Source: Thermoproteota archaeon (GTDB taxonomy: Archaea > Thermoproteota > Thermoprotei_A > EX4484-217-1 > JAPDJV01). From it: DNA of 64,000 bases. Location: assembly GCA_029258925.1 (NCBI GenBank), contig JAPDJV010000014.1:1-64000 (forward strand). The letters run 5' to 3'. The notes below the pieces were generated by a model, which was not told the DNA's origin, made no database searches, and saw only the letters and a program-made list of their open reading frames with translations. Both the position numbers and the translations under genes were made by a program. This document shows, piece after piece, positions 53,993 through 54,410 of this stretch; within the stretch, counting starts at the first letter, position 1, and the number at the start of each line of letters is the position of its first letter.

Positions 53993-54394
53993 CTACTCCT
54001 GTTTTAGGATCATTATAGCTTTAGGATACTTGATGCGTAATGCTATGGTTTCCCATACTCTAAATATATGTACACCGTCCTCCGATCCTAAGTAATCCAT
54101 TACCGTGTCGGCACCTACTACTACATCCAACATGTAAGAGTTGGCGGAGACTAGGAGAGCTACGTTGTCGGATAGTTGTTGAAGCTGTACGACATCTCTT
54201 ACCATGGATTTGATTCTGTTTAGCTCCATAACGCCTGTTCTCTCATGAACAGCTACAAGCTTACTATATCTTCTTGGACTTAAGAATAATATGAATGGTT
54301 GCATAGCGCCGGCTTTTATCAACGTTGATATGGCCTTAGATACTTCCTCTACCGCAGAGCCTAACGTAGCAGTTAAATATTTGATAGGTAAATG
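53993..54394 (-). pseudogene. Encapsulin (HK97-fold nanocompartment shell) C-terminal fragment, apparently 5'-truncated
   Basis: Frame from 54394: ..YLTATLGSAVEEVSKAISTLIKAGAMQPFILFLSPRRYSKLVAVHERTGVMELNRIKSMVRDVVQLQQLSDNVALLVSANSYMLDVVVGADTVMDYLGSEDGVHIFRVWETIALRIKYPKAIMILKQE; matches the encapsulin C-terminal pattern as remembered. The only canonical start is the TTG at 54322, inside the homologous region. Confidence 0.72.
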
Positions 54395-54410
54395 TCATAT
54401 TTGGTAAGCG

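Follow-up and report, generated by a model that had tools for sequence, protein, structure and literature searches.

In the window, as we call the whole stretch of 64,000 nt analyzed here, a minus-strand reading frame of 133 codons runs open from 54394 to a stop at 53993. It carries the end of an encapsulin gene, set directly against an IS607-family insertion sequence (Table 1). At the level of sequence comparison, the encapsulin match of this frame is far beyond chance. Pfam PF04454 (Linocin_M18) was matched at E=4.2e-19 with 69.2 bits, against a curated cut-off of 24.3, and encapsulins in the PDB were matched down to E=2e-17. The NCBIfam model encap_f1 (NF041155) gave E=5.5e-24 and 85 bits, under its 100-bit cut-off, a shortfall that likely reflects the shortness of the remnant. 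More than 30 archaeal homologues were about 40-68% identical to it. A preliminary description of this DNA had recognized the C-terminal ~120 aa of a family-1 encapsulin here, in a frame that stays open for 24 codons 5' of TTG 54322, and both points hold. The frame covers only positions 144-253 of the 253 in the Pfam profile and does not make up a full-length HK97 fold (N-arm, E-loop, P-domain, and A-domain). It is the leftover of a family-1 member, not a working member.

Table 1. Features at the junction of the encapsulin remnant and the insertion sequence
Feature	Position	Strand	Remarks
3' remainder of family-1 (Flp-fusion type) encapsulin gene	53993..54361	-	122 codons plus stop; corresponds to residues ~242-363 of intact relatives; PF04454, tblastn end, 62-68% identity
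TTG, first canonical start of the remaining frame	54320..54322	-	24 codons into the open frame; 109-aa product; database protein P0001 begins here
Nonhomologous head of the open frame (HLPIKYLTATL)	54362..54394	-	IS607 left-end DNA read backwards; common to L049, L052, and L051
IS607-family element	54360..56342	+	Left core CC 54360-54361; right end GCTGAACCCC, CCCC 56339-56342; ends set by comparing other copies
tnpA, IS607 serine-recombinase transposase	54411..55022	+	203 aa, intact frame; NF033518 E=9e-71, above cut-off
tnpB, RNA-guided endonuclease-type accessory protein	54994..56337	+	447 aa, intact frame; Cas12f1-like_TNB E=2e-13
DNA between the right end of the element and nfeD	56343..56617		No trace of the encapsulin 5' part; frameshift-aware scores equal those of shuffled DNA

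Beyond the stop of the remnant, maltokinase-like (TreS C-terminal) and glycogen-synthase-like genes stand in tandem on the minus strand (50817-53583), preceded by a plus-strand gene that by eye is phosphomannomutase-like.

The insertion and its junction with the gene

The element itself is ordinary and resembles other IS607-family insertion sequences with TnpB (IS607, ISC1926, and IS1535). Its tnpA product scored 237 bits against the NF033518 equivalog cut-off of 110, as an IS607-type serine transposase, and the tnpB product reached 99.3 bits with guided_TnpB, for which the cut-off is 100. Insertion of IS607 elements takes place at GG and duplicates no target sequence (PMC6188088), and no duplication would be expected here; a GG (CC) core lies at both ends, and these ends are conserved in other copies. 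The left end, CG(A/T)A(A/G)C(T/A)GTTAA, is common to a copy in the same genome (L049) and to copies in G016 (L052) and G001 (L051), all with unrelated flanks, and the G001 copy also has CCTAACG at this end. By the same comparison, the right end is intact. The copy from the same genome (L049; G000 contig C16, 38500-43881) is a second IS607/TnpB element, 74-77% identical. An Rfam scan of the region gave nothing credible.

When intact homologues were compared with the window by tblastn, the alignments ended at 54361 in most relatives, and the few that ran 2-10 codons further are, in our reading, chance extensions. The end of encapsulin homology and the independently placed left end of the element thus agree to about 2 nt and fall on CC 54360-54361. 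On the encapsulin strand, these bases read GG and are positions 1 and 2 of a conserved glycine codon, at roughly two thirds of the gene's length. Because the two ends coincide there, the open frame starts with 11 codons that belong to the element. The preliminary description had proposed that part of the stretch 5' of the TTG encodes the expected helix; GSAVEEVSKAIST is indeed genuine encapsulin, but HLPIKYLTATL is not. Its proposal of an ancestral encapsulin decapitated at an IS insertion is supported by the meeting of both homologies on the GG core. The break, placed earlier at 20-40 nt from tnpA, is instead the left end of the element, 50 nt before the tnpA ATG.

Intact relatives and the ancestral gene

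Encapsulin homologues were found in 20 other genomes among 60 relatives and at nineteen named loci. The complete relatives scanned, from Thermoproteota, are proteins of ~345-380 aa with an N-terminal rubrerythrin/ferritin-like domain followed by an encapsulin domain, and both domains were present in almost all of 120 proteins among the matches listed. The solved relative across the full length is 2e0z, and three of the closest intact homologues (P0004-P0006) are 67-68% identical to the remnant over 121 residues. The Flp-fusion class to which such proteins belong has been described mostly from Crenarchaeota (PMC8346489). Judged by these relatives, the ancestor of the window gene encoded about 360 aa, with a ferritin-like domain joined to the shell part; it was a Flp-fusion encapsulin of the Pyrococcus furiosus type, not of the T. 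maritima type assumed at the outset.

The remnant, which amounts to the last third of the gene, belongs to the same family and subgroup as the Flp-fusion encapsulins of P. furiosus (2E0Z) and Sulfolobus solfataricus; unlike its intact relatives, it has no N-terminal ferritin-like domain. The N-arm, the E-loop half, and the start of the P-domain are absent, as was noticed before, but the loss is larger than supposed, since the fused ferritin-like domain is gone too, for a total of about 240 residues. P0002, a relative of 219 aa (61% identical) on a contig of 2 kb, begins inside the shell domain and has no ferritin part, perhaps because the contig end truncates it, or perhaps as a variant without the fusion.

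In the nearest relatives, a gene for a ferritin-like protein of ~164 aa lies directly 3' of the intact Flp-fusion encapsulin (L030:1979-2470 and L031:652-1143). Among Pfam labels, fatty acid desaturase 2 fits it best, and a rubrerythrin match stays below cut-off; the protein is possibly a second cargo. No remnant of this gene was found in 53583-53993. A gene for a NikR-like nickel-responsive regulator lies just upstream of intact encapsulins (L030:339-752 and L032:35-448) and was not found at the window locus.

Neighborhoods were compared in search of synteny or an empty IS site. The loci retrieved from relatives have no neighboring genes in common with the window, and no empty site was found among them. 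The glycogen-synthase-like (GlgA-like) gene was unmatched at E<=1e-50 in 30 relatives, and nfeD is only ~30-35% identical in relatives, so that neighborhoods are not comparable. Three genomes of the same order (G001-G003), two of them incomplete, gave no encapsulin match.

Elsewhere in the source genome, the standard ferritin family was not matched at E<=0.001, whereas all 14 control genomes were. The only rubrerythrin-family match at this threshold is a 308-aa open frame (L092; G000 contig C7:34121-34501) in which a hydrophobic part, by eye similar to iron transporters of the VIT/Ccc1 type, comes after a rubrerythrin-like domain. A 150-aa protein with a weak rubrerythrin match (L093:1495-1947; G000 contig C19:16087-16497) adjoins a gene that by eye is ZIP-transporter-like, and is a very distant match to an encapsulin-associated ferritin-like protein (E=0.086).

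Probable loss of the upstream part and fate of the remnant

A clean insertion alone cannot explain the locus, as the other half of the gene does not lie past the element in any frame. Frameshift-tolerant alignment of 56339-56640 on the minus strand with three intact proteins gave scores of 26-27, and shuffled DNA averaged 26-28. This agrees with the earlier failure to find the missing half at 56340-56600. A by-eye W-x-x-x-G match beside the right end was dropped, as it would have to include a stop codon and depends on the choice of core register. With the fused protein as query, neither the missing part (at E<=1) nor a homologue of the ferritin-like domain of the fusion was found elsewhere in the genome, a 56-contig assembly that is 98.4% complete; phage records gave no match. 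The missing part is thus undetected both past the right end at 56342 and in the remainder of the genome; unless the contig is misjoined, a further event must have followed the insertion, and the two flanks of the element are not partners.

Such a mismatch of flanks could also arise from the assembly or from a strain mixture: if the element occupied two sites, within a full-length encapsulin gene and ahead of nfeD, the assembler might have cross-joined the flanks, and the cell would in truth contain both parts of the gene, separated by the element. In favor of such an error, the element is of a repeat type and the assembly has 56 contigs, and the DNA past the intact right end bears no relation to encapsulin. 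However, the other gene part is on no contig of this nearly complete assembly, which contains no second near-identical copy of the element (though identical copies would collapse), and the same short protein has been recorded from two contigs, possibly not independent. We therefore regard an artefact as unlikely.

The reading that we favor, and consider probable, is that the locus is a pseudogene remnant of a Flp-fusion encapsulin, left by an IS607 insertion and the subsequent loss of the gene part past the element, in a recent event and with no useful product. The lineage would have had a family-1 encapsulin fused to a ferritin-like domain, an iron-storage shell of the P. furiosus type, and the matching boundaries show insertion of the IS607/TnpB element at the GG of the conserved glycine codon. 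The promoter, the start, the ferritin domain, the N-arm, the E-loop, and the start of the P-domain would then have been lost, leaving the intact right end against unrelated DNA before nfeD. The likeliest route would be that two copies of the element recombined or that TnpA made a deletion from the right end; we favor these over a random deletion because the right end is intact. The leftover frame most likely makes nothing useful, since a start is lacking at the right place and the parts for shell assembly are absent.

The break is probably recent, because the remnant has neither stops nor signs of accelerated evolution. One of 21 near-invariant columns is altered, and the root-to-tip distance is the fourth lowest of 122 sequences. 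The remnant groups with the intact proteins P0003-P0009 (support 0.89); its long terminal branch (0.29) reflects the lack of known close relatives.

An undamaged frame of 122 codons would also be expected of a functional short protein. In this alternative, which we consider very improbable, the frame (109 aa from TTG 54322, or longer) is translated into an A-domain-only protein with a role like that of family 4. The frame is open, conserved residues are kept, and the fragment is predicted to retain an encapsulin-like fold: an AlphaFold model of the 122 residues had a pLDDT of 81.5, and Foldseek, a comparison suggested in the preliminary description, placed it closest to the P. furiosus virus-like particle 2e0z and then to other family-1 shells. 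Yet model confidence drops to about 60 near residues 81-105, which form a confident long strand in the full-length relative, and the remaining helix has no start codon close to where it truly begins. Among ~5.8 billion clustered proteins, the only matches of comparable length were the frame itself and P0002, and this lack of short orthologues speaks against a role.

Family-4 A-domain encapsulins likewise encode mainly the A-domain side of the HK97-type fold in about 110-120 aa. The window remnant, in contrast, has no similarity to their profile (PF08967, ENCP4/DUF1884; no match at E<=10) and derives from an IS-broken gene that is clearly family 1, so that the surviving family-4 protein considered earlier must be abandoned. 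PF08967 was not matched in its own genome either, in a search run without a positive control. In family-4 operons, the encapsulin lies downstream of hydrogenase, OsmC, GAPDH, or DeoC genes (PMC8346489), and no such enzyme partner adjoins the remnant, whose neighbors are the IS607 element and the glycogen-synthase-like and maltokinase-like genes. It is more doubtful still that the insertion created a new short A-domain-only protein now used by the cell; if it had, family-4-like A-domain proteins could come from full encapsulins in one step.

That the fragment was imported with the element from another genome, flanking DNA carried along, into a host that never had a full encapsulin is hardly credible: the same-order genomes searched, two of the three incomplete, gave no encapsulin match, but IS607 elements end at their GG cores, with the fragment outside them, and the third-position GC of the remnant (0.42) fits that of neighboring genes (0.36-0.42).

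The locus is an ordinary case of gene loss caused by an insertion sequence, not a new kind of protein, and the 109-aa database protein that bears the encapsulin Pfam label should not count as a short encapsulin. Disruption of genes by insertion sequences is commonplace. Our literature search on encapsulins broken in this way found nothing relevant, and the window offers a clean case, resolved to about 2 nt, in which a thermophilic archaeon lost its nanocompartment for iron storage.
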